A DNA stretch of 64,000 bases from the NCBI GenBank assembly GCA_938002255.1, contig CALLAL010000036.1, positions 1-64,000 on the forward strand. Direction: 5' to 3'. The DNA comes from an uncultured bacterium (GTDB taxonomy: Bacteria; Desulfobacterota; BSN033; UBA1163). The notes under the pieces are model-generated. The model was given only the letters and a program-made list of their open reading frames with translations, ran no database searches and was not told the origin of the DNA. Shown in pieces: positions 12,937 through 32,749 of the stretch (the first letter of the stretch is position 1; each line of letters opens with the position of its first letter). The position numbers were made by a program, and so were the translations under genes.

Positions 12937-13030
12937 TGGCGGAAGTGCATGGGAATCGAACCCACCATCCCGGGTCAACGGGATCACTGGATTTGAAGTC
13001 CAGGAGGCCCACCAGAACCTATCCACTTCC
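12937..13030 (-). tRNA. selC: Selenocysteine tRNA (anticodon TCA)
   Basis: A 94-base tRNA including encoded CCA. Anticodon TCA is at 12994-12996 within the loop cttcaaa, flanked by the CTGGA/TCCAG stem. The variable arm is long (atcccg/cgggat stem). Acceptor (GGAAGTG/CACTTCC plus an eighth G-G position) and a 5-bp T stem give the 13-bp branch (8/5) of bacterial tRNA-Sec; discriminator is G. It decodes UGA at SECIS-marked sites with SelB. It begins nine bases after the yggU stop and is probably processed from that transcript. Confidence 0.95.
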
Positions 13031-15223: not shown

Positions 15224-16657
15224 TTATGTTTCATCGGTTTTGCATAGGGTTTTCTCAATGCCTTCAGCCAGAAAGTGGATTTCTTCATCCAGGACCGTTC
15301 GCATATCAAGGATTAATGCATCTTTCTTGATTCGAGAAATGATGGGGGGATTGGCTTTTCGGAACTTCTGTTCAAGGCTATGGGCTGAGTGGTGAGGAGA
15401 TTGAATTGCAACGACAATCGTCGGAAGTTCCTGAAGGGGAAGGGCTCCCCCACCGGCCTGAGAGACGTCTTCTTTCAATGTTATTTGAATAGATGTTTCG
15501 ATTTTGCCCTGGAGTCGCTTTAGTAAGCGTCTGCCTCTGTTTTTCAGGGTCTGCAGGTTTAGGGTGAGCATCTTAAGGGTCGGAATTTCGGAGAGGGCTT
15601 TCTTCTCATCAAGGTAAAGAAGGAGCGTTGATTCCAGTGCGGCCAGGGTGAGCTTATCAATGCGGAGAGCCCGGGTTAAAGGATTGACTTTAACCGAATC
15701 AAGAATATTTTTCTTCCCGAGAATGATTCCTGCCTGAGGCCCACCGAGCAATTTATCTCCACTGAATGAAATCAGGTCAACTCCTGTTCGGATGGAGTCC
15801 TGAACCGTGGGCTCTTTTTCCAAACCATATGGACTAAGGTCCACCATACATCCACTTCCAAGATCTTCCATTACAGACAAATGATATTTCCGCCCTAATT
15901 GAACCAGTTCTTCAAGAGAAACGTCCGAGGTGAAACCCATCACCCTGAAGTTGCTCGGGTGGACTTTTAAAAGAAGAGCCGTTTCAGAGCCTATGGCTTT
16001 TTCATAATCTTTGAGATGAGTTCGATTGGTCGTTCCCACTTCCTTTAAAAGCGCTCCACTTCGTCTCATCACATCCGGGATGCGAAAAGCACCTCCGATT
16101 TCAACCAACTCTCCTCTCGAAATGACAACCTCCCTCCCTTCTGCCAGCGTATTAAGACAGAGCAGAACAGCTCCGGCATTATTATTGACAACCAGAGCGG
16201 ATTCGGCGCCCGAGAGCCTGCATAACATCTCTTCCACATGGGAGTACCGATCCCCCCGTTCTCCCCGGACCAGATCGTATTCGAGATTGGAATAGGCTTT
16301 AGCGACCTCGACTACCTGTTTGAGGGCAAGAGGGTGAAGCGGTGCTCTTCCAAGATTGGTATGGATGACCACTCCTGTGGCATTGATGACCCGGCGAAGT
16401 TTCGGCTGAGCCAGCCAATCAATCTCTTTCCTGAAACGGGGCAAAAGGGTTTCAAAAGAAAAGAGCGCCTCATCCGCCAAGAAAGATTCTCCCCCCTTCG
16501 AAATCTCTTCTCGCAGTTGCCTCAACCCTCTCCGGACAGCCTCGACTACAACGGTTCGGGAATAGACCTTCAAAAGATCGCTCATCTCCTGTCTGGAGAG
16601 GATGTCCTCCACACTCGGAATCTTACGAAGAGCCTGTTGGCGAAGGGTTGGATCCAT
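15224..16657 (-). CDS. selA: L-seryl-tRNA(Sec) selenium transferase
   Basis: Pyridoxal-phosphate enzyme that converts Ser-tRNA(Sec) to Sec-tRNA(Sec) with selenophosphate. The 477-residue chain has the N-terminal tRNA-binding region (RKIPSVEDIL), RRVINATGVVIHTNLGRAPL at 88-107 and the cofactor lysine K302 in SFSGDKLLGGPQAG. A ggaggaag ribosome site precedes the ATG. It overlaps the upstream radical-SAM gene by 35 bases, so the two are co-translated. Confidence 0.97.
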   Translation of the reverse strand: MDPTLRQQALRKIPSVEDILSRQEMSDLLKVYSRTVVVEAVRRGLRQLREEISKGGESFLADEALFSFETLLPRFRKEIDWLAQPKLRRVINATGVVIHTNLGRAPLHPLALKQVVEVAKAYSNLEYDLVRGERGDRYSHVEEMLCRLSGAESALVVNNNAGAVLLCLNTLAEGREVVISRGELVEIGGAFRIPDVMRRSGALLKEVGTTNRTHLKDYEKAIGSETALLLKVHPSNFRVMGFTSDVSLEELVQLGRKYHLSVMEDLGSGCMVDLSPYGLEKEPTVQDSIRTGVDLISFSGDKLLGGPQAGIILGKKNILDSVKVNPLTRALRIDKLTLAALESTLLLYLDEKKALSEIPTLKMLTLNLQTLKNRGRRLLKRLQGKIETSIQITLKEDVSQAGGGALPLQELPTIVVAIQSPHHSAHSLEQKFRKANPPIISRIKKDALILDMRTVLDEEIHFLAEGIEKTLCKTDET

Positions 16658-20032: not shown

Positions 20033-21187
20033 TCAATTTTTTCTCCGAGCAATACGATCAATCGTTTCAAGCACCTTATGGATTTCTTCAAGAGTATTAA
20101 AACATCCAAGACTGAATCGGACCGTTCCCTCCGGAAAGGTTCCGATGGTTTTGTGGACGGATGGGGCACAGTGGAGCCCTGGTCGGCAGAGGATACCCGA
20201 TTCATCCTCCAGACGAGAAGCGACTTCTGAGGGTGCAAGATTTTTGAGATTGAATGAGAGGGTTGCCATTTTTTCAGCTGGGTTTTGAGGACCATACAGC
20301 AATATCCCTGGAACCTCTTGCAACCCTTCTGTCAATTTGCCGATGAGTTGGGTTTCATATTGGCGAACGAAAGCCACTCCTTTCTTCATAACAAAGGAGA
20401 CACCAGCCAGCAATCCAGCTATGCCAACGGCATTTGGCGTTCCACTCTCATACCGGTCTGGAAGAAAATCCGGTTGTTCCTCAAATTCCGAACGACTCCC
20501 GGTCCCTCCTTGCTTCAAGGGGGTAAGGTCTTGAATCTTGACCTTCTCGCCGATGGCCAATCCTCCTGTCCCCTGGGGGCCATAGAGGCTCTTATGGCCT
20601 GTAAACGCCAAAAGATCAATCCCATCGCTTTCCATATCGATAGGATAGGCCCCAGCGGTTTGAGCGGCATCCACGAAAAAAAGGATTCCATGATCACGGG
20701 CAATCTTTCCGATCTCAGGAACCGGGAGCAGGGTTCCTGTGACATTGGAGGCGTGATTGAGAACGATCATTTTTGTTTGGGATCGAATCTCCCTCTTCAC
20801 TTCTTCTGGATCGAGCTCCCCTTGCGGAGAACAGGGAACAATATGCAATGTTACCCCTCTCTTCTCTAACTCCCTGAGGGGTCTCATGACGGAATTATGT
20901 TCCATACTGCTTGTGAGCACATGGTCTCCAGTGCGCAGAAGCCCTTTTAGGGCAAGGTTGATTGATTCGGTTGCGTTGAGAGTAAAAACGATGCGGGAAG
21001 GATCTTTTACATTGAAGAGTTTTGAAAGGGCCTCTCTTGCTTCGTAGAGGATTCTTGCTGCTTCAATGGAAAGCCGGTGGCCGGACCGGCCCGGGTTGGC
21101 GCCAACCTCATCCATAAACCTGACCATCGCTTCTTTCACTTCAGGCGGCTTTGGCCAGGAAGTGGCGGCATTATCAAAGTAGATCAT
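20033..21187 (-). CDS. Cysteine desulfurase / selenocysteine lyase family aminotransferase
   Basis: Class V pyridoxal-phosphate enzyme of 384 residues. MIYFDNAATSWPKPPEV starts the chain, the cofactor lysine is K199 in FTGHKSLYGPQGTGG and the catalytic cysteine is in GLHCAP near residue 345. It resembles the subgroup found next to selD and yedF in many genomes, where it may release selenium or sulfur from Sec/Cys for selenophosphate synthesis. The specific substrate is inferred from context. Confidence 0.87.
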   Translation of the reverse strand: MIYFDNAATSWPKPPEVKEAMVRFMDEVGANPGRSGHRLSIEAARILYEAREALSKLFNVKDPSRIVFTLNATESINLALKGLLRTGDHVLTSSMEHNSVMRPLRELEKRGVTLHIVPCSPQGELDPEEVKREIRSQTKMIVLNHASNVTGTLLPVPEIGKIARDHGILFFVDAAQTAGAYPIDMESDGIDLLAFTGHKSLYGPQGTGGLAIGEKVKIQDLTPLKQGGTGSRSEFEEQPDFLPDRYESGTPNAVGIAGLLAGVSFVMKKGVAFVRQYETQLIGKLTEGLQEVPGILLYGPQNPAEKMATLSFNLKNLAPSEVASRLEDESGILCRPGLHCAPSVHKTIGTFPEGTVRFSLGCFNTLEEIHKVLETIDRIARRKN

Positions 21188-21647: not shown

Positions 21648-22229
21648 TTAGGGCCGAATCAATCGATCTGCCTCAAAGAGTGTTTTGGCGATGTCATACA
21701 TATTTGAGATGACGCCGACTTTTAGTTTTTCTTTGAGGCCATAGAAATCGAGGCAGGTTCCACAGGAGAGAATGATCACCCCCTTCTTTGAAAGAGCTTC
21801 GAGATCTTCTAAAACCATTGAACCTTCGGTTGTAAGCCGAACACCAGAATTAATAAACACCAGCGTGGAGGGTCTGGTTTCCATCTCTGATAGAACGTGA
21901 AGGAAAGATCTCATAAGCGTCGTACCCAGCGCTTCGTCTCCAACCCCCATCAGGTTTGAATTGATATAAACCACCACTTTTTCTGCTTTTTGAGGGGAGG
22001 AAGCAAGATCACAGGTCCCTCCTTTTTCAATGGTGAGGTAAAAATCGTTTCCCTTCTTTTCCACACTGACGCTTGCTCCCTGACTCTGTGCGAATCGTTC
22101 CACATTATCACGGGCAGCCAGATTATCAACAATGACCATTAATTTGCCTTGTGGACTCTCCTCAAGGGCTTTTTTGGTTGTTAAGACCGGTTGCGGACAT
22201 GCCAATCCCCGACAATCAATCTCTTTCAT
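21648..22229 (-). CDS. yedF: Sulfurtransferase-like selenium metabolism protein YedF
   Basis: A 193-residue fusion of an N-terminal TusA/SirA domain (DCRGLACPQPVLTTKKAL, with Cys 6 and 11) and a C-terminal DsrE-like domain ending in LSCGTCLDFYGLKEKLKVGV. This two-domain form is the YedF family tied to selenium utilisation. An aaggagg site lies before the ATG, 21 bases after the selD stop, so it is in the selD operon and may hand selenium to SelD. Confidence 0.92.
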   Translation of the reverse strand: MKEIDCRGLACPQPVLTTKKALEESPQGKLMVIVDNLAARDNVERFAQSQGASVSVEKKGNDFYLTIEKGGTCDLASSPQKAEKVVVYINSNLMGVGDEALGTTLMRSFLHVLSEMETRPSTLVFINSGVRLTTEGSMVLEDLEALSKKGVIILSCGTCLDFYGLKEKLKVGVISNMYDIAKTLFEADRLIRP

Positions 22230-22250: not shown

Positions 22251-23300
22251 TTAAAGGATTTTCACCTTTGGATGGGACATGGCCACTACTTCTCCCACCC
22301 TGGCTACGGGCCCAACCTCTTTCTTTTTCAGTGCCTCTATAAAGGTATCGGCCTCTTTATATGAAACGGAAAGCAATAACCCTCCAGAGGTTTGAGGATC
22401 AAAAAGGATTTCTTCCCTTTCTCGGGTCAACGTTTTATTGATTTCCAAAAAACCCTCAGACAATTTCCGGTTGGCCTTATTGCTTCCCGTGGTCTCACCT
22501 CTTTGATACATCTCAAGGGCATGGGGATAGATGGGAATCTGGTCATAAAAAAGATGGATTTCCATTTGACTCCCTTTTGCCATTTCGAGAGAGTGTCCGA
22601 TGATGCCAAACCCTGTAATGTCGGTACAGGCATGAACATCAAATTGTATAGCAATTTCTATCGCTTCTCTATTTAATGAAGCAACCCTCGGCAGGATCGC
22701 CTCCAACTCCCGCCAGGAAAGTCTTTTCGAGCGACATGCATTGAACAAAACACCCGTCCCGATAGGTTTGGTCAGAATCAAAACGTCTCCCTCCTGGGCC
22801 CCTGCATTGGTCAGGATTCTTCTTGGATGAACCACGCCTGTAACCGCCAGTCCATATTTGGGCTCGTTGTCATCTACAGAATGACCTCCGGCGATGGAGG
22901 CACCCGCCTCAGTGACCTTGTCGGAACCTCCTCGTAAGATTTCTCTTAAAATACCCATATCGAGTATCTTAGATGGGAACATCACCAAATTCAAAGCGGT
23001 TAAGGGTTTTCCACCCATCGCATAAATATCCGATAGAGAGTTTGCTGCTGCAATCTGGCCAAACCAATAGGGATCGTCCACCGGCGGGGTGATGAAATCA
23101 ACGGTGCTGATAAAAGCGATCTCATCTGTGAGTTTGTATACCGCTGCATCGTCACTGGTCTCAAATCCTACAATGAGATTGGGATCTTGCGATCGCCCTA
23201 AGGATTTCAACGCGTCCGACAGATCCGTCGGACCGATCTTGGCTGCTCACCCACAAGTCCGGGAGAGTCCGGTTAAGGTTTTTTTCTTGAAAAAGTTCAT
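22251..23300 (-). CDS. selD: Selenophosphate synthetase containing selenocysteine
   Basis: Makes selenophosphate from selenide and ATP, the selenium donor for SelA. The full gene starts at an ATG at 23298-23300 and reads through an in-frame TGA (23247-23249) at codon 18: TGLSRTCGU then AAKIGPTDLSDAL. Position 18 with K21 matches the catalytic Cys/Sec-Lys pair of SelD. Without read-through only a shorter chain from a TTG at 23210 lacking the active site would be predicted. Remaining motifs (FITPPVDDPYWFGQIAAANS, AGGHSVDDNEPKYG) are typical; total 349 residues. selB ends 24 bases upstream. Confidence 0.95.
23214..23233 (-). promoter_or_regulatory. Bacterial SECIS hairpin in selD
   Basis: Perfect 7-bp stem gtccgac/gtcggac with loop ggatct, starting 13 bases after the selD TGA on the minus strand. 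Position and size fit the SelB-binding hairpin. Confidence 0.8.
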
Positions 23301-23324: not shown

Positions 23325-25277
23325 CTAAAAATATTTTACGGTGGAGTGATCTTCTCTCGCCACATTCTTGTATAATACCCGATAATCTCCGACACGGATG
23401 GTAAATCGTATGGCGTCCAGATACTCAAAGATCGGTTGGGCCTGAGTTCGGCCAATCCCGATCACCTCCATGGCTTCCCCCAAGGCAATCTTTCCGTTTC
23501 TTTCGATATGCTGCTTTAAAATGGTTTTGATTTCTTCAATGGATTCTGAATGAATCAATCGATGATTTTTCAGCCTTATTAATCTTCCTTCGTTAATCAT
23601 CAACTTCAAAACTCCTTCTACTACCTTCTCTCCATAATCGTTTCTTACTCTGTTCAGAATATCTAGGGGAAGGGGTCTGAAACCGGAAGCCCTGCAAAGC
23701 CGATCAAATTCATTATAGATAGTTTTTTGTTTGTCACTCAGTGTTTGTTGAAATCCAGCTAACTTCATTCTTCCTTTTTGTATCTCAATCTTTCCCTCTT
23801 CCTTAAGTTTTCTAAGGGTTTCCTCAAATAAAGATGGATCCAGATGATGAGAAATCCTTGACCGAATCTCCTCCTGGGAGACATCTTTTAAATCTGGATT
23901 CTTTTCGTGAAATTCTCTGAGTCTTTCAAGAATCTCTTTTTTTAACTGTTCAATTGAATCGATATGGACCAGAAATCCATCGCCGATCCATAAAATTCGA
24001 TTCTCCTTCGATAAAATCTCACAACCTTTTTCAATCTCTTCCAAACTCAGACCCAGCCTTTTTGCGAGATCTGTTATTCCAAGTGTATACCTCTCTTTTC
24101 TAATTAAGGCTTCAATGGTTTCGTAACTATCTCTATTTTCAAGCATTTTTAAATAATCTGTCGCGATGGGATGAAGGGGAGAATGTTTTTTGGGATTGAT
24201 TTCTAAAATTATACCTCCTCCAATCGTGACTATCGGGCTTAAAGTTCTAACGATATATCGATCATAAGGGAGAGGAGAAATCTTCTTTTCTAATCGAAAC
24301 TGGACATAGCAGGTTTCTCCGGGCAGAAGCCTCTCCTTTTCTATCAACACCATTCGCCCAATGACTTCGGTTGTCCCTGAATAAAATTTCATTCTCATTC
24401 GGTTTGTAAGAGGAATTGAATTGGAATTTAAATATTGAAATTTTGCATTAAAGAGATGCGTTGGGACTAAGCCTTTTGGTTCACTTATGACCATTCCCCT
24501 ATCTATTTCTTCTAACTTCAGATTGGGAAGATTTAATCCCACCCTCTGGCCTGCAAAAGCCTCGTTGACCCATAGATTATGGATCTGAATATTTCTAACT
24601 ACCGCGGTCTTTTCGATAGGATAAATTTCAATGGTATCTCCTTTTTTTATTTTACCTGAAGCAATTGTGCCTGTAACCACCGTCCCGTAACCGACCATCG
24701 TAAAAACACGATCGATAGGAAGACGAAAAATTCCTCCTTGATTCTTTTCAACGACTTGATCAACCAGATGATCGATGGTTTGGATTATCTCTTCTGCCCC
24801 TTCTCCTGTAAGTGCTGAAAAAGGAATGATTGGGGCTTCCTCAAGAAAAGTTCCTTTGACAAGATTCCTTATCTCTTCTTTGGCTAATAAAAGGATCTCT
24901 TTATCAACAAGGTCAATCTTTGAAATAACAATTAAACCGTATCCAATATTTAGAAGTTTTAAGATATCCAGATGCTCCCGAGTTTGAGGCATCACCCCAT
25001 CGTCAGCCGCAATAACCATTAAAGCCACGTCCACCCCGGAAATCCCCCGAAGCATATTTTTGATAAACCGCTCATGCCCTGGAACATCTACCACAGAGAC
25101 TATTCTTCCGGAGGGAAGTTTGAGATAGGCAAACCCTGGTTCAATCGTCATCCCTCTTTCTTTCTCTTCTTTTAGCCGATCCGTATCGATGCCGGTTAGG
25201 ACTTTCACCAGGGCGGTCTTTCCATGATCGACATGACCTGCGGTTCCGATGACAATGTTTTTTTGATTACCATACAT
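23325..25277 (-). CDS. selB: Selenocysteine-specific elongation factor
   Basis: EF-Tu-like GTPase of 650 residues that delivers Sec-tRNA to UGA codons. G-domain motifs [25 protein letters not shown] and SKIDLVD are present, then EF-Tu domains 2 and 3 and C-terminal winged-helix repeats (from about residue 390) that bind SECIS. The ATG at 25277 follows aggtga; a GTG three codons upstream is the alternative. The gene begins 19 bases after the 3' end of the selC-like tRNA-Cys, so both share a transcript. Confidence 0.97.
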
Positions 25278-25296
25278 TTTAATCACCTAAGAATCA

Positions 25297-25388
25297 TGGA
25301 GGGGGCAGGGGGAATCGAACCTCCTCCTCGGTTTTTAGACGAGGCCAACGGGTTTGCAGCCCGCGGGGTGCCCAGCACCACTGCCCCC
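25297..25388 (-). tRNA. selC-like second cysteine tRNA (anticodon GCA, 8/4 structure)
   Basis: A 92-base type II tRNA. Acceptor GGGGGCAG/CTGCCCCC pairs over 8 bp; the T stem is then GG(A)GG/CCCC, 4 bp with one bulged A; T loop is ttcgatt; discriminator is T(U73) followed by encoded CCA. The D arm is compact (ggtgc/gcacc with a tgg loop), the anticodon loop ctgcaaa gives GCA (25355-25357), and the variable arm has a 5-bp stem (cctcg/cgagg) with a 9-base loop. U73 and GCA are the main cysteinyl-tRNA synthetase identity elements, while the overall shape mimics tRNA-Sec. It lies five bases after the ATPase stop and just before selB. Confidence 0.92.
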
Positions 25389-25393
25389 TTCTA

Positions 25394-26146
25394 TTATCGC
25401 CCTGATTCCTGAGCAATCATTGCAGCACCATAGGCACCTACGGTTTGGGGATTTTTTGGAATTTTTATTTCACAGCTAAGTAACTTACTGAGTAATTTCC
25501 TCATGCACGGGTTCTTGGCGACACCCCCTGCGAAAATAATGTCAGGTGCCGTAGATACTCTTTTCAATAAAGAAAGGGTCCGATTAAGGATTGCCATATG
25601 AATCCCCCGGGCAATATCCTCCCTTTGCTGTCTTCTGGCCAGTAGAGAGGTTACTTCTGATTGGGCAAATACCGTGCACATGCTGTTGATCTGGATATTG
25701 CCGTTCGCTCTCAATGCGGCTCCTCCAAATTCTTCCAGATCGTATCCCAGTGTCTTAGCTATGACTTCGAGAAACATCCCTGTTCCAGCGGCGCAGCGGT
25801 CATTCATCTCGAATTTAGAAACGTTTCCCCTTTCATCCAGTCCAATCGCTTTCGTATCCTGACCTCCTATATCAAGGATAGTCCGGCAATCAGGGAAAAG
25901 CGTCTTTGCTCCTCTGGCAAATGCCTTAATCTCTGTCACGGTTGGAGCATCAAAATGGGTTTTAAAAAAATGCCTTCCATATCCCGTGGCCAGGATCTTG
26001 TCAAAAGAGGTCTGGACTAAAAGTTTATTACATTGCTCGAGGGGATCATGGGTGGTGTCAGCTATTGACGAGTAAATAATTTCCCCATCTTCTACCACCA
26101 CTAATTTGATTGTCCTTGAACCAATATCAATACCTGCTGTCTTCAT
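25394..26146 (-). CDS. HgdC/BcrA-type ATPase activator (acyl-CoA dehydratase activase)
   Basis: ASKHA-fold ATPase of 250 residues that injects low-potential electrons into a double-cubane or dehydratase partner. GIDIGSRTIKLVVVEDG at the N-terminus binds ATP, and DRCAAGTG and NSMCTVFAQSEV carry the two cysteines that hold the shared [4Fe-4S] cluster of the dimer. It is directly adjacent (no gap) to a double-cubane-cluster protein gene and is followed by the selC-like tRNA-Cys and selB. Confidence 0.9.
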   Translation of the reverse strand: MKTAGIDIGSRTIKLVVVEDGEIIYSSIADTTHDPLEQCNKLLVQTSFDKILATGYGRHFFKTHFDAPTVTEIKAFARGAKTLFPDCRTILDIGGQDTKAIGLDERGNVSKFEMNDRCAAGTGMFLEVIAKTLGYDLEEFGGAALRANGNIQINSMCTVFAQSEVTSLLARRQQREDIARGIHMAILNRTLSLLKRVSTAPDIIFAGGVAKNPCMRKLLSKLLSCEIKIPKNPQTVGAYGAAMIAQESGR

Positions 26147-27292
26147 CTAACTTTTCACCATCTCCAGAAACGCTTCGATGCGCACCCTCAATTGTTCGGT
26201 ATCAGATTCGGAATAATCGGTTTCCAGATGCAGAAAGGGTAATCCCCATTTCTCACTGACAAATTTCTCGATTTGATACGATTCGATATTATAAGTGTGG
26301 CAGGCCTGCCAGGTCAGATCGATCACTCCATCCACTGAAAAATCCTCGATCAATTCGTCCAGAAGTTTAATTCTGCCCGGGTTTGGAGACATGACCGAAC
26401 AGGGAGTTGATAAATATTTTTCGGCCATGGCCTGAAGGGGTTCTTTATTTTCATCAATCATGAATACCGAACGATATCCACTGCAGTTCTCCAAACAAAC
26501 GACATTCGCCCCGGCTTTTTCAATCAGCCGAACCACCTTCTCAGAACCAAGCCCCACAGGAACACCCGTGACCAAGATTCTGGGGGTCTTTGGGTGAAAT
26601 GGGCTTTCTGCTGGATTACCTTTCCTACGAAATTCGTCAACAATTTCGTTCATCAGGGCAATTCCCAACCTTTTATCCATAAAGAATCCCGTCTTAAACA
26701 TCACGGTCAGAAGCTCAATGCCACTGATCGGAGAAGGGTTCATTTTCGGCAGGTCCATTAAGGCCTTTTTTGCCTTACGCTCCTGGTTAGTCAGTTTAAT
26801 CGCCTCGGATAATCTCTCGTCCGTAATTTCAACACCGGTCACTTTCTCTACCTTCTTTTTGAACTTAACGATCTCGTCATACCAGAAGGATAAAGCCCCG
26901 TCGGTTTCCTGTGTCTGGGGTAACTGAAGAATATGGATGGGCCGAAATTTAGCTAACAGCTCAAACATCTTCTTCTTGCCGTCACATGTGGTCTCGCCAA
27001 CGACCAGATCGGAAAACCGAAAATAGGGACACGTGTCTGTCGCGGCATAGCCGTAGCTACTTTTGATTAATGGACATAGATTTCTGGGCAATACTTTTTC
27101 AGCCGCCTCAATGGGTTCGTTTCGAGTGCCACAAAGAGAAACGGGAATCGCATTAGCAGCGACAGCAATCTCTATCGGAGAATAAAGACAGTAAAACCCA
27201 ATGACTTTTCGGCCTTCCTGCTTTGCCTTTGCAATATTAGGAAGGTTCTGTTCTGAAAGTTGCTGGAGTTTGCTAAAGGTTACCAAGTTCAT
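26147..27292 (-). CDS. Double-cubane-cluster protein / 2-hydroxyacyl-CoA dehydratase-like subunit
   Basis: Protein of 381 residues in the HgdB/BcrC superfamily. Conserved cysteine segments are GFYCLYSP, SLCGTRNEPIEAAEKVLPRN with CPLIKSSYG, GETTCDGKKKMFE, ENCSGYRS and TWQACHTYN, as in double-cubane-cluster proteins that reduce small molecules using an ATP-driven activator. No separate acyl-CoA binding partner or coenzyme-A transferase is nearby, favouring a DCCP over a dehydratase. The substrate is unknown. A paralogue lies at 28200-29480. Confidence 0.85.
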   Translation of the reverse strand: MNLVTFSKLQQLSEQNLPNIAKAKQEGRKVIGFYCLYSPIEIAVAANAIPVSLCGTRNEPIEAAEKVLPRNLCPLIKSSYGYAATDTCPYFRFSDLVVGETTCDGKKKMFELLAKFRPIHILQLPQTQETDGALSFWYDEIVKFKKKVEKVTGVEITDERLSEAIKLTNQERKAKKALMDLPKMNPSPISGIELLTVMFKTGFFMDKRLGIALMNEIVDEFRRKGNPAESPFHPKTPRILVTGVPVGLGSEKVVRLIEKAGANVVCLENCSGYRSVFMIDENKEPLQAMAEKYLSTPCSVMSPNPGRIKLLDELIEDFSVDGVIDLTWQACHTYNIESYQIEKFVSEKWGLPFLHLETDYSESDTEQLRVRIEAFLEMVKS

Positions 27293-28199: not shown

Positions 28200-29480
28200 T
28201 CACTTCTTCACCATCTCCAGAAAAGCCTCGATTCTTGTCTTCAGTTGACCGACGTCCTCCATGCCGTAATCGGTTTCAATTTTAAGCATGGGAATTCCTT
28301 TTTCCTGAAGGGCTTTTTCAACTCTGTACGCCTCCACGGTATAAGGGGTACAAAACTGAATGCTGTAGTGGATGACTCCATCTGCTTTAAACTCCTTGAC
28401 CAGATCGAGAATATGGTCCGTCCGTTCCACATTTGGAGTGAAGCAGGCACAGTCTATCTTCATATATCGATCGGTGATAGCGTCGATCATCTCATCGAGC
28501 GTCTTTCCGCTCTCATCGACCAGATCTCTTGTGCTTCGCTCTCCCACGCAAGATTCCTCAGCCACAACAATGGCCCCACTTGTCTCTATGAGATAAGGGA
28601 TCTTCCAATTCGGGACTGCCATGGGAGATCCAGACACTAAAATCCTTGGTGTCCCATTTTTTACGACTCCTATTCCTTTTTTGATACGATCCTCAATTTC
28701 ATCACAAAGGTCATTGACACTCTTGGTGAACCGAAGAGGATCATCATAAAAGGCAATCTGATTCACCAGAAGAGCATCAAGTCCAGAGATAGGTGAAGGG
28801 ATTGCTTCTCGAAGAGAACTCAATCGTTGGAGAACCCGGCGTTTATTATTAACGATCTTGATTCCCTCCCTCAGGTTTTCAGAAGTAATCTTTCTACCAC
28901 TTAACTGCTCCACTTTGTCTTTGAACTGAATAATTTCACCCCGCCAGAGGGTCCTGTCCCGTTCAGTCTTCATCTGAGGGATTTCCATCACATAGGTCTC
29001 TTTATAATCATTCAGAATCTCATAAGCCTTTTTCTTTCCATCACAGGTCGTTTCTCCAACGACGAGATCGCTTGCCTGAATGTAAGGACAGAGACCGGCC
29101 AGTTTAAATCCCATAAAGGATTTAATTAAGGCACAGGTATTTCTTGGAAGGACTTTCTCTGCCTCATCGATACCGATCTCAGCTCCTGCACAGAGGCCTA
29201 CACAGGTGGCTCCAACGGCAAGGATCAACTCTTCCGGTACATAGACACAAAAGGTTCCTATTACTTTGTTTCCTTTTTTCTTCGTTTCCATCAATTCTTC
29301 AATCCTAAGTCCGTGAGCCTCTGAGATGACAAAATCGAGATACTGCATGCCTTTGGGTCGATTTTCCTGTCTCATATAGATGTCTTTGTAGGCCTGTCCT
29401 AAAACATTGAGAAGCTGATCGTGTCCCACAAGATTTAAACCCAGTTCTTTCCACATCGGACGATAATCTTTTTGAGTCAT
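28200..29480 (-). CDS. Double-cubane-cluster protein / 2-hydroxyacyl-CoA dehydratase-like subunit (paralogue)
   Basis: A 426-residue member of the same family as 26147-27292, with an N-terminal extension of about 50 residues. Motifs: GTFCVYVPEELILAVGA, GLCAGAEIGIDEAEKVLPRN, NTCALIKSFMGFKLAGLCPY, GETTCDGKKKAYE, EESCVGERS and IQFCTPYT. Both chains end in a near-identical tail (RIEAFLEMVK). The pair may form a heterodimer or two homodimers served by one activator. It is the first gene of the operon that runs to selB. Confidence 0.86.
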   Translation of the reverse strand: MTQKDYRPMWKELGLNLVGHDQLLNVLGQAYKDIYMRQENRPKGMQYLDFVISEAHGLRIEELMETKKKGNKVIGTFCVYVPEELILAVGATCVGLCAGAEIGIDEAEKVLPRNTCALIKSFMGFKLAGLCPYIQASDLVVGETTCDGKKKAYEILNDYKETYVMEIPQMKTERDRTLWRGEIIQFKDKVEQLSGRKITSENLREGIKIVNNKRRVLQRLSSLREAIPSPISGLDALLVNQIAFYDDPLRFTKSVNDLCDEIEDRIKKGIGVVKNGTPRILVSGSPMAVPNWKIPYLIETSGAIVVAEESCVGERSTRDLVDESGKTLDEMIDAITDRYMKIDCACFTPNVERTDHILDLVKEFKADGVIHYSIQFCTPYTVEAYRVEKALQEKGIPMLKIETDYGMEDVGQLKTRIEAFLEMVKK

Positions 29481-29726: not shown

Positions 29727-30842
29727 TCATCGGCTCTCACCCCCTTCATGAGTAATTTTAATTGTGTTTAATGATGAAATTGAATCTTCTAAATCTAAAA
29801 TAAGCTGATTTAAATCCAATTGATATTTCTGTGCTACCTGCCTGAGTGGTTCAAAAAGAGCCTGGCAACAAATGCAACCCCCAACTTTTTCGTCATATTT
29901 TTTAAAAACCGATTCTGTCTCTCGATAACGATCAATAATTTCTAAAACAGTCATTTCGGGATGAATATTTTTATGATTTTTTGATTCAGATTTGAGAACT
30001 TCCTCGATGGCCTTTGGAATATACTGGATAATTTCACTGACCTGAGTTCCTGGAGAGGGGTGTGCATAAGATCCGGCAAGTCTGTTTACCCGCGCCGCCA
30101 TAATGGCAGCCTTCCTTAACTCCATACCCGATGAAATGATTGCAGCCACGATTCCGGTCAACGTATCTCCGGTTCCTCCAATGGCCTCCATTGCCTCTTC
30201 CATAGGAGTATCAATGATGGTCTGAACCCCATCCTTATCCGCAAAGTAATCCTTCCTCCCTTTGACCAGAAGATATTGGGCGGCATTTCCGTGTTGATAG
30301 GCCCTTGCAATCAAGTCCGGAACACGGTTTTCTTCATGTAGAAGAAACCCTCTTGTGTAAAAAGGGTGAGGAGCCAGCTCATCAGCTAGAAACGCAAGCT
30401 CTCCCATATCTGGAGTAAAGAGGTCATAGGCACTGGATCGTCTGCTCATCTTAGCGACATACATAAAACCAGCATCTGCGATGAGGATCGGAGTGGGGGT
30501 TATTTTCTGAAGGACAGATAAAATTCGACTGTGCCATCCAATAAGGGGCTGAATGTAATGAAAGACGATCGTTTGGAAATGTTTTTCCTTCAAATCCTTG
30601 ACAAGATACTGATACAACTTCTGGCTGCCATCTCCATTTCCAATATCCCCTATCAAATAACCAAAGGGTTCTTTTTGACCCAATTTTTTTAATGTTTTAA
30701 TAGCAGCAGCCAATAATGCTGGAGTTCCCCTTTTTACAGGAATCTCGTTTCCATGTATATAGAGGGTCCCATTTTTGAGCTTAACCTCTCCTGCCACCAA
30801 TGGGAACTCAGGATTGGGCACCGTTCCTACAACTGCAAGCAT
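29727..30842 (-). CDS. NAD(P)H-hydrate dehydratase-like kinase fused to a DUF1858 redox-disulfide domain
   Basis: A 371-residue fusion. Residues 1-290 resemble ribokinase-fold NnrD/HMP-kinase-like proteins, with AIGGTGDTLTGIVAAIISSG containing the catalytic GD. The C-terminal 75 residues (PEMTVLEIIDRYRETESVFK and GGCICCQALFEPL) are a DUF1858 / hybrid-cluster-associated disulfide domain with a CxCC motif. Its first 16 bases overlap the DUF3343-type gene, placing it last in the yedE operon. The activity is not predictable; the fusion suggests a thiol or selenol carrier coupled to a small-molecule kinase fold. Confidence 0.78.
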   Translation of the reverse strand: MLAVVGTVPNPEFPLVAGEVKLKNGTLYIHGNEIPVKRGTPALLAAAIKTLKKLGQKEPFGYLIGDIGNGDGSQKLYQYLVKDLKEKHFQTIVFHYIQPLIGWHSRILSVLQKITPTPILIADAGFMYVAKMSRRSSAYDLFTPDMGELAFLADELAPHPFYTRGFLLHEENRVPDLIARAYQHGNAAQYLLVKGRKDYFADKDGVQTIIDTPMEEAMEAIGGTGDTLTGIVAAIISSGMELRKAAIMAARVNRLAGSYAHPSPGTQVSEIIQYIPKAIEEVLKSESKNHKNIHPEMTVLEIIDRYRETESVFKKYDEKVGGCICCQALFEPLRQVAQKYQLDLNQLILDLEDSISSLNTIKITHEGGESR

Positions 30843-31381
30843 CTTCTTTGCATTTCCTCATAAGCTAACTGAAGGGCATAACCACAGAGCGTATGTCCGA
30901 TGTCGCGGGGACTCGGAGCTTCGTGCAACGGTTTGCCCACCATCTGTTCAGCCAGATAGGGGACATCCGGGCAACCCCCTCCAGAAATATTCACAATCAT
31001 CAGGGATTCTTTTTCGATCGTCAGTTTCATGTTCGCCGCCTGAACCATGAAATATTTTCCAAAATCCTTTGTTTGAAATAGATTCACAGGTTCAAGTAGA
31101 GGGCTGCTGACCGGGATCACCTGAAGAGGAGAAATGCCTGCCTCCTGAAGCGTTTTGGTAATCTTTAATTCTTCAATCAAGGGAAATTCAATGACCAGAT
31201 CGCATCCTTTTCTGATTTCAGGCGGAGGTCCCATGACTTTAACCTCCCACCCTCTTTTCTTGAGCACTTTCTCCGCTTGGATGACTTCACTTGTGTTTTC
31301 AAATACCAAAAAGCCGCGGTCGTCTTTTTTACTTTCTTCAATCCGGGGTTGGCCCTTTTTTAAAAATTCCAACAGCGCCAT
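30827..31381 (-). CDS. DUF3343-containing protein (putative Se/S carrier) with C-terminal extension
   Basis: A 184-residue protein. Residues 20-90 (FLVFENTSEVIQAEKVLKKR and GCDLVIEF) match DUF3343, the putative selenium/sulfur carrier family; the C-terminal half (VNISGGGCPDVPYLAEQMVG, HTLCGYALQLAYEE) is a separate conserved-looking domain with two cysteines that I do not recognise. It lies three bases after tusA and overlaps the kinase fusion. Confidence 0.75.
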   Translation of the reverse strand: MALLEFLKKGQPRIEESKKDDRGFLVFENTSEVIQAEKVLKKRGWEVKVMGPPPEIRKGCDLVIEFPLIEELKITKTLQEAGISPLQVIPVSSPLLEPVNLFQTKDFGKYFMVQAANMKLTIEKESLMIVNISGGGCPDVPYLAEQMVGKPLHEAPSPRDIGHTLCGYALQLAYEEMQRRCLQL

Positions 31382-31619: not shown

Positions 31620-32714
31620 CTAAGCGACTTCTTTTCTCATGGTGAATCCAATAAACAAACAGGTAAGAAGCCCAATGATCACAGCAGGAATTCCATAATG
31701 TCCAACTCCATCCGGAGAACTGGCCAGGCCAAAGTTATGGGCAATACCGGCTCCAACGATCATTCCAAGGACGAATACTGCAGCATCCCCATCTCCTTCT
31801 CCCGCAAGAAAAAGCTGTCTTCCAGGACATCCGCCTGCCAGACAGAAGGCCAATCCTGCCAAAACCATGCCGCCGAAGTTCCAGAGGCTCATGGTGTGAG
31901 CTATAGGTTGTTTTTCAAAACCGGGGTTAAATTGTCCTAAAATCAGGTTGACGATGAAAGCAACCACGACGAGGGTAATAAATCCCAGAAGGAGATGAGC
32001 TTGCCTAAAAAGCACAAAATCCCTAATGGCGCCCATAGTGCAAAACCGGCTTCGCTGTGCCAGAAATCCAATCAAGAGTCCGATCGCCAGCGATACCAAA
32101 AGCGGGGCATGCATAGATCCAGGCCCTTTGACGCTGTAAAATAGAACTCCACTTTTTTCTTGTCCCGGAACTTGTGGAAAAATCAGCATTAAAACAAGGA
32201 AGCCCAGCATAATTAATGGTAGTAACCATCCAACCGAGGTGTGAGTTTTTTGAGCCCGTCCAAGGTTGTAGCCACCTTTTAAGAAGAAGGTGCCTATCCA
32301 TATCCCTCCAATGAGTCCGAGCAGGCCAAAGATAGCATTGCCGTCACCACCGGAAAGACGGAGTGCGGCCCGCCACGGGCAGCCTAAAAAGACTAGTCCT
32401 CCAATCATGGCAAAGGCTCCAAGAACAAATCGAACAATAGGAGCAGAGCCAGCCCTTGCTCGAAATTCCTTAAACGCATAGGCTGCAATCAGTGATCCCA
32501 AGACAAAGCCAATGATCTCGGGCCTCATGTATTGAACAACAGCCGCCCGATGAAGTCCGAGGGCACCCGCAATGTCCCTCTCCATGCAAGCCACACAGAC
32601 GCCCATGTTTGCAGGATTCCCCCACTTCTGCAGAAGTGGAGCAAAGATTCCAATGAAGGCTCCCACCGATATAATTCCCCAACGAGTCGCAAAAAAGTTT
32701 TTAATGGTGCTCAT
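31620..32714 (-). CDS. yedE: YedE family putative selenium transporter
   Basis: Integral membrane protein of 364 residues with two YeeE/YedE repeats and about ten hydrophobic helices. Conserved cysteines occur in CVACMERD, LGCPWRAAL, SRFCTMGAIRDF and GGCPGRQLF, residues used by this family to pass thiosulfate or selenium species. The ATG at 32714 follows aaaggagg by about seven bases; the upstream in-frame ATG would overlap that site. It leads a yedE-tusA-DUF3343-kinase operon. Confidence 0.9.
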   Translation of the reverse strand: MSTIKNFFATRWGIISVGAFIGIFAPLLQKWGNPANMGVCVACMERDIAGALGLHRAAVVQYMRPEIIGFVLGSLIAAYAFKEFRARAGSAPIVRFVLGAFAMIGGLVFLGCPWRAALRLSGGDGNAIFGLLGLIGGIWIGTFFLKGGYNLGRAQKTHTSVGWLLPLIMLGFLVLMLIFPQVPGQEKSGVLFYSVKGPGSMHAPLLVSLAIGLLIGFLAQRSRFCTMGAIRDFVLFRQAHLLLGFITLVVVAFIVNLILGQFNPGFEKQPIAHTMSLWNFGGMVLAGLAFCLAGGCPGRQLFLAGEGDGDAAVFVLGMIVGAGIAHNFGLASSPDGVGHYGIPAVIIGLLTCLFIGFTMRKEVA

Positions 32715-32749
32715 CGATGCTCCTCCTTTCATTTATCATTCTTTCTTTT

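Follow-up and report, generated by a model that had tools for sequence, protein, structure and literature searches.

Why does a bacterium keep, just ahead of a gene for the delivery factor SelB, a cysteine tRNA that is built like tRNA-Sec? The question is raised by a 64,000-nucleotide stretch of DNA (the window) from an uncultured member of the Desulfobacterota, in which a tRNA gene, here called selC*, occupies positions 25297..25388 of the minus strand. Its neighbors lie on the same strand. Upstream, in gene order, are yedE for a putative selenium transporter (31620..32732; TIGR04112), a Se/S carrier-like protein (30827..31381; PF11823, formerly DUF3343), a carbohydrate-kinase/DUF1858 fusion that recurs in the neighborhood (29727..30842), two double-cubane-cluster proteins (28200..29480 and 26147..27292; both NF040772), and an activase of the double-cubane or 2-hydroxyacyl-CoA dehydratase type (25394..26146; TIGR00241). 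Downstream are a SelB gene (selB*, 23325..25277; TIGR00475, 366 bits), the selenoprotein gene selD (22251..23300), yedF (21648..22229; TIGR03527), and a cysteine desulfurase family gene whose product resembles selenocysteine lyase (SclA) while scoring below the SclA cut-off (20033..21187). The spacing is as tight as the first-pass annotation had described: selC* begins 5 nt past the activase stop at 25394 and ends 19 nt before the selB* ATG at 25277, with an alternative in-frame GTG at 25286. Near the start of the window, a bacterial small SRP RNA is encoded at 176-274 on the plus strand.

A cysteine tRNA on the plan of tRNA-Sec

Direct reading of selC* yields an 8-bp acceptor stem (GGGGGCAG/CUGCCCCC), a D stem of GGUGC/GCACC closing a 3-nt loop, the anticodon loop CUGCAAA, the long variable arm of a type II tRNA (CCUCG/CGAGG), and a 4-bp T stem with a single bulged A (GG-A-GG/CCCC). 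The 3′ end carries U73 followed by an encoded CCA. ARAGORN likewise calls a tRNA-Cys (gca) at exactly these positions, and the architecture described in the first-pass annotation is confirmed. The Rfam tRNA-Sec model matches the same stretch at 56.7 bits, above its cut-off of 47, and the ordinary tRNA model scores it at 21.8 bits. Thus, selC* shares the overall plan of canonical bacterial tRNA-Sec (RF01852), but it differs in having U73 instead of the G73 needed by SerRS, a GCA rather than a UCA anticodon, an 8/4 branch with a bulge rather than 8/5, and a 5-bp D stem.

The fold is not a product of chance. In an alignment of 79 relatives, 98.3% of cells pair and both-sided changes occur at 17 of the 27 pairs, compared with 8.7 in shuffled versions; this alignment was fitted to the model and has 72 distinct rows, two of which are canonical tRNA-Sec. 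A small unfitted alignment agrees with it on the conserved pairing, and the structure is maintained by compensatory changes in relatives.

An ordinary tRNA-Cys is encoded at G000:C42:31263, so selC* is not the only tRNA-Cys of the cell, and the single CysRS gene over the curated cut-off resides on a different contig from the window. The window itself also encodes a canonical selC with a UCA anticodon (12937..13030, minus strand; ARAGORN and Rfam) and selA (15224..16657, minus strand; TIGR00474, 633 bits). Therefore, selC* is an extra tRNA, present beside an ordinary tRNA-Cys, one CysRS and a canonical tRNA-Sec. SelA is found in all well-sampled selC* genomes and in 36 of 38 overall, the two genomes that lack it being 79% and 62% complete.

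These properties identify the window pair as a further member of a published but little-tested system, as the first-pass annotation had suggested for the tRNA. That system comprises selC* tRNA-Cys, SelB* and, in some Desulfobacterales, a dedicated CysRS* (Mukai et al. 2017, NAR, as relayed by PMC7609411). Shared with that account are the 8-bp acceptor stem, the 4-bp T stem with its bulged A51a, the long variable arm, U73, the GCA anticodon, a second selB downstream and the same bacterial groups. The window differs from the system as related there by its double-cubane activase upstream, by selD and yedF downstream and by having no CysRS* gene. It falls outside the CysRS* subgroup, since its anticodon is GCA rather than UCA and its sole cysS over the cut-off is on another contig.

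Of 395 genomes sampled from the phylum, 40 match a covariance model of selC*, and inspection leaves at most 38: the matches in G119 and G196 are canonical tRNA-Sec, and the one in G305 (locus L160) is a divergent 8/5 form with a GCA anticodon. Scanning a single genome per species for the selC* pattern returned 79 stretches. Two of them, from Dehalococcoidia (L237:5626-5721 and L266:6524-6619), are canonical tRNA-Sec genes (UCA, G73) with the same 8/4 branch and bulged A. The others come mostly from metagenome-assembled genomes of Desulfobacterota/Deltaproteobacteria; four are labeled Actinomycetota and one Nitrospirota, although such labels can be wrong. Carriers include cultured bacteria such as Desulfacinum. 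The same pattern had no match in viral contigs. Across 92 unique loci the anticodon is UCA at 54 and GCA at 38. GCA is more simply viewed as ancestral, because the UCA rows nest within one GCA-containing group of the SelB tree. Three UCA-type genes (L142, L146 and L240), each followed by SelB*, have A73 in place of U73.

A second SelB as the partner of selC*

Two genes in the genome pass the SelB cut-off, namely the window copy and one at C49:6369-8258. Among 59 relatives, including this genome, exactly five have two selB genes, and the same five have selC* beside selB. In a SelB tree of 57 rows (quick search, midpoint rooting), all 27 selC*-linked rows fall into one clade with an SH-aLRT of 100, and the C49 protein groups with the canonical SelBs of its own family. 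The window gene thus shows both marks of published SelB*, being a second copy downstream of selC* and phylogenetically distinct from canonical SelB. The gene order recurs in relatives: a SelB gene follows shortly downstream in 68 of the 83 unique selC* loci that have at least 700 nt of downstream sequence. One contig (RPGP01000040.1; L280/L253) has two selC* copies, and at L280 another SelB*-like ORF lies upstream and SelB* itself is divided between two ORFs.

The partner of selC* is therefore a dedicated second SelB rather than the canonical SelB of the cell. This corrects the first-pass proposal that the tRNA is produced together with SelB and may tune Sec/Cys insertion at UGA. The adjacent SelB gene is real, but it encodes SelB*, and with canonical SelB encoded on C49, competition with Sec-tRNA for the same factor does not follow.

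SelB* proteins are also altered at informative positions (E. coli numbering). Residues Y42, D180, R181 and R236 of E. coli SelB bind Sec, as mapped from eEFSec (PMC5059743) and our alignment. All 57 SelB* proteins retain D180 and R236, 34 of them have Q, G, K or H in place of R181, K186 is often replaced, and V or I predominates at position 42 (F/Y). At position 238, beside R236, 56 of the 57 SelB* proteins have Gly, and each of the 29 canonical SelBs sampled has Ala. The protein at L265 is the sole selC*-linked SelB with Ala there. The window SelB* retains F42, D180, R181 and R236; with F42 and R181 unaltered, it shows the least change in the core of the pocket. The pocket residues of SelB* differ from those of canonical SelB, and SelB* may deliver Cys-tRNA(selC*) rather than Sec-tRNA.

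Changes are likewise seen in the last winged-helix domain, WHD4. K582, present in 29 of 29 canonical SelBs, is gone from nearly all SelB* proteins and R607 from most; canonical SelBs vary little or not at all at these two positions and at F573, which is also lost. R581, T597, R599 and R604 are retained. Given the known role of this domain, the changes may alter recognition of mRNA by SelB*, with K582 and R607 as putative RNA contacts.

Redox operons and UGA codons beside selC*

The surroundings of selB* are distinctive. We probed for genes encoding heterodisulfide reductase, MvhD, double-cubane protein with its activase, formate dehydrogenase and hydrogenase. Of 38 selB* loci, 29 have such genes no more than 1.5 kb away, versus none of 58 canonical selB loci, a real contrast whose size is inexact because the probes were picked from selB* neighborhoods and the loci are not independent. 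In two lineages the FDH-N genes beside UCA-type selC* have TGC at the classical Sec site, and the hydrogenase adjoining the gene at L152 is of the NiFeSe type with an uninterrupted frame. These cases hint at an association of selC* with the Cys forms of selenoenzymes. At four loci (L263, L269, L277 and L239) a small cysteine-rich protein, similar by eye to A-type Fe-S carriers, is encoded just upstream of selC*; a Pfam scan of the one at L277 gave no match.

If SelB* acts at UGA, then where are its codons? The window selD has an in-frame TGA at 23249-23247, within the motif TCGUAAK and followed directly by a hairpin, and the genome has a second SelD with TGA at C25:89603. On the sense strand and in the coding frame, selD is the only UGA gene adjoining selC*. 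The adjacent redox genes contained no in-frame UGA by tblastn (41 and then 116 loci) or by a readthrough scan of the UCA loci, genes of the HGD-D family in 20 genomes are free of stops, and the gaps upstream of selC* held no convincing small UGA gene. Other TGA/Cys alignments beside selC* proved to be antisense or out-of-frame matches, and a split HdrA at L063 is caused by a frameshift rather than by TGA. A UGA-containing SelD is near-universal across the phylum, whether selC* is present or not, so bootstrapping of SelD is rejected as an explanation peculiar to selC*. A comparison by eye of SelD SECIS hairpins between selC* genomes and others revealed no clear difference.

Possible roles of selC* and SelB*

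The explanation that we favor, and that we regard as about evenly poised between right and wrong, is a backup that places Cys where Sec is meant. According to this model, selC* and SelB* would form a dedicated pair of a tRNA-Cys on the tRNA-Sec plan and its own delivery factor. The only CysRS of the cell would charge selC* with Cys, as U73 and GCA predict and as the literature reports for relatives. The tRNA-Sec-like body would keep selC* from EF-Tu, and SelB* would bring Cys-tRNA(selC*) to ribosomes that have reached a UGA codon in a selenoprotein mRNA. Cys would then replace Sec, most usefully under selenium shortage. We infer each of these points, namely charging, delivery, UGA as the target and the role in selenium shortage. 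In favor of the model are the conserved pairing of selC* with SelB*, the separate SelB* clade and its altered aminoacyl pocket, the SelA of selC* genomes, selD as the sole neighboring UGA gene, and TGC at the Sec site of the FDH-N genes.

Precedents exist for this scheme. In Desulfotomaculum nigrificans, a tRNA-Cys with a GCA anticodon and a tRNA-Sec-like body is described as decoding Sec UGA with Cys through SelB, not EF-Tu (Vargas-Rodriguez et al. 2018, RNA Biol, as conveyed by PMC11415595); the window differs from that account in encoding a dedicated SelB* beside the tRNA. A role in selenium scarcity has been proposed for such tRNAs (PMC9437257). The archaeal SelB relative aEF-X (MM1309; PMC4329189) also binds Cys-tRNA, but this 350-aa protein binds ordinary tRNA-Cys, whereas SelB* retains the C-terminal winged-helix domains. 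Insertion of Cys at Sec UGA codons is thus a published hypothesis that has been reported for a GCA relative. The opal suppression raised in the first-pass annotation was proposed mainly for UCA members, and the annotation's interpretation as a whole is partly supported. The UGA of selD fits the backup model without singling it out, because that codon is near-universal in the phylum. Arguing against the model are the genomes of family f19 (L064, L143, L148, L153 and L154), in which a selC*-like tRNA with GCA, U73, an 8/5 branch and no bulge occupies a conserved spot without SelB*. The loss of K582, R607 and F573 from WHD4 is a further hint against it, since SelB* may not read the same SECIS.

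That loss could instead point to a distinct signal. We consider it somewhat unlikely that SelB* delivers Cys-tRNA(selC*) to mRNAs with a hairpin of their own, distinct from the SECIS read by SelB, perhaps those of co-transcribed redox enzymes. A WHD4 without K582 and R607 that nonetheless keeps R581, T597, R599 and R604 would suit such a factor, as would the redox genes found by selB* and not by canonical selB. Against this, the adjacent redox genes of the UCA lineages offer no in-frame UGA, the HGD-D genes of 20 genomes contain no stop, no conserved signal came to light, and the RNA contacts of K582 and R607 are themselves presumed from the known role of the domain. A slightly less doubtful form of the idea would make SelB* a cysteine-specific factor for orthogonal recoding that recognizes a signal of its own in mRNA and is housed in operons of cysteine-containing redox enzymes.

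Might selC* simply be a minor tRNA-Cys, carried by EF-Tu to UGC and UGU codons, with selB nearby by accident? The intact CysRS identity elements and the five f19 genomes would permit this. It is nevertheless improbable in view of the normal tRNA-Cys in the genome, a pairing with SelB* conserved over many lineages, UCA members that could not read UGC or UGU, and the relative reported not to be carried by EF-Tu (PMC11415595).

Still a little less probable is a tRNA-like element whose processing from the operon mRNA controls selB* expression, as has been proposed for nested selC genes (PMC8124441). Only 5 nt separate selC* from the activase gene and 19 nt from selB*, so that RNase P would sever the transcript, but the conserved anticodon, U73 and CCA would be unneeded for regulation alone. 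Such control may coexist with one of the other roles instead of competing with it. Least credible of all is a tRNA-Sec whose GCA anticodon would place Sec at Cys codons, as reportedly happens in Aeromonas salmonicida, a reading that would suit the tRNA-Sec-like body, the selA and canonical selC of the same window and the retained Sec-binding residues of its SelB*, but that U73 and a canonical tRNA-Sec with its own UCA anticodon speak against.

To the reviews cited here our analysis adds the distribution in the phylum, the nesting of UCA within GCA types, the Fe-S/redox operon setting and selD as the only adjacent UGA gene. These findings bear on two questions: whether bacteria put Cys in the place of Sec on purpose, and how two SelB factors are kept distinct within one cell. 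The changes in SelB* at position 238 of the aminoacyl pocket and at 582 and 607 of WHD4, along with the redox-operon setting, make a loose hypothesis testable by binding and decoding experiments. If SelB* is indeed an orthogonal recoding factor, then some bacteria would run two separate SelB decoding systems in parallel.
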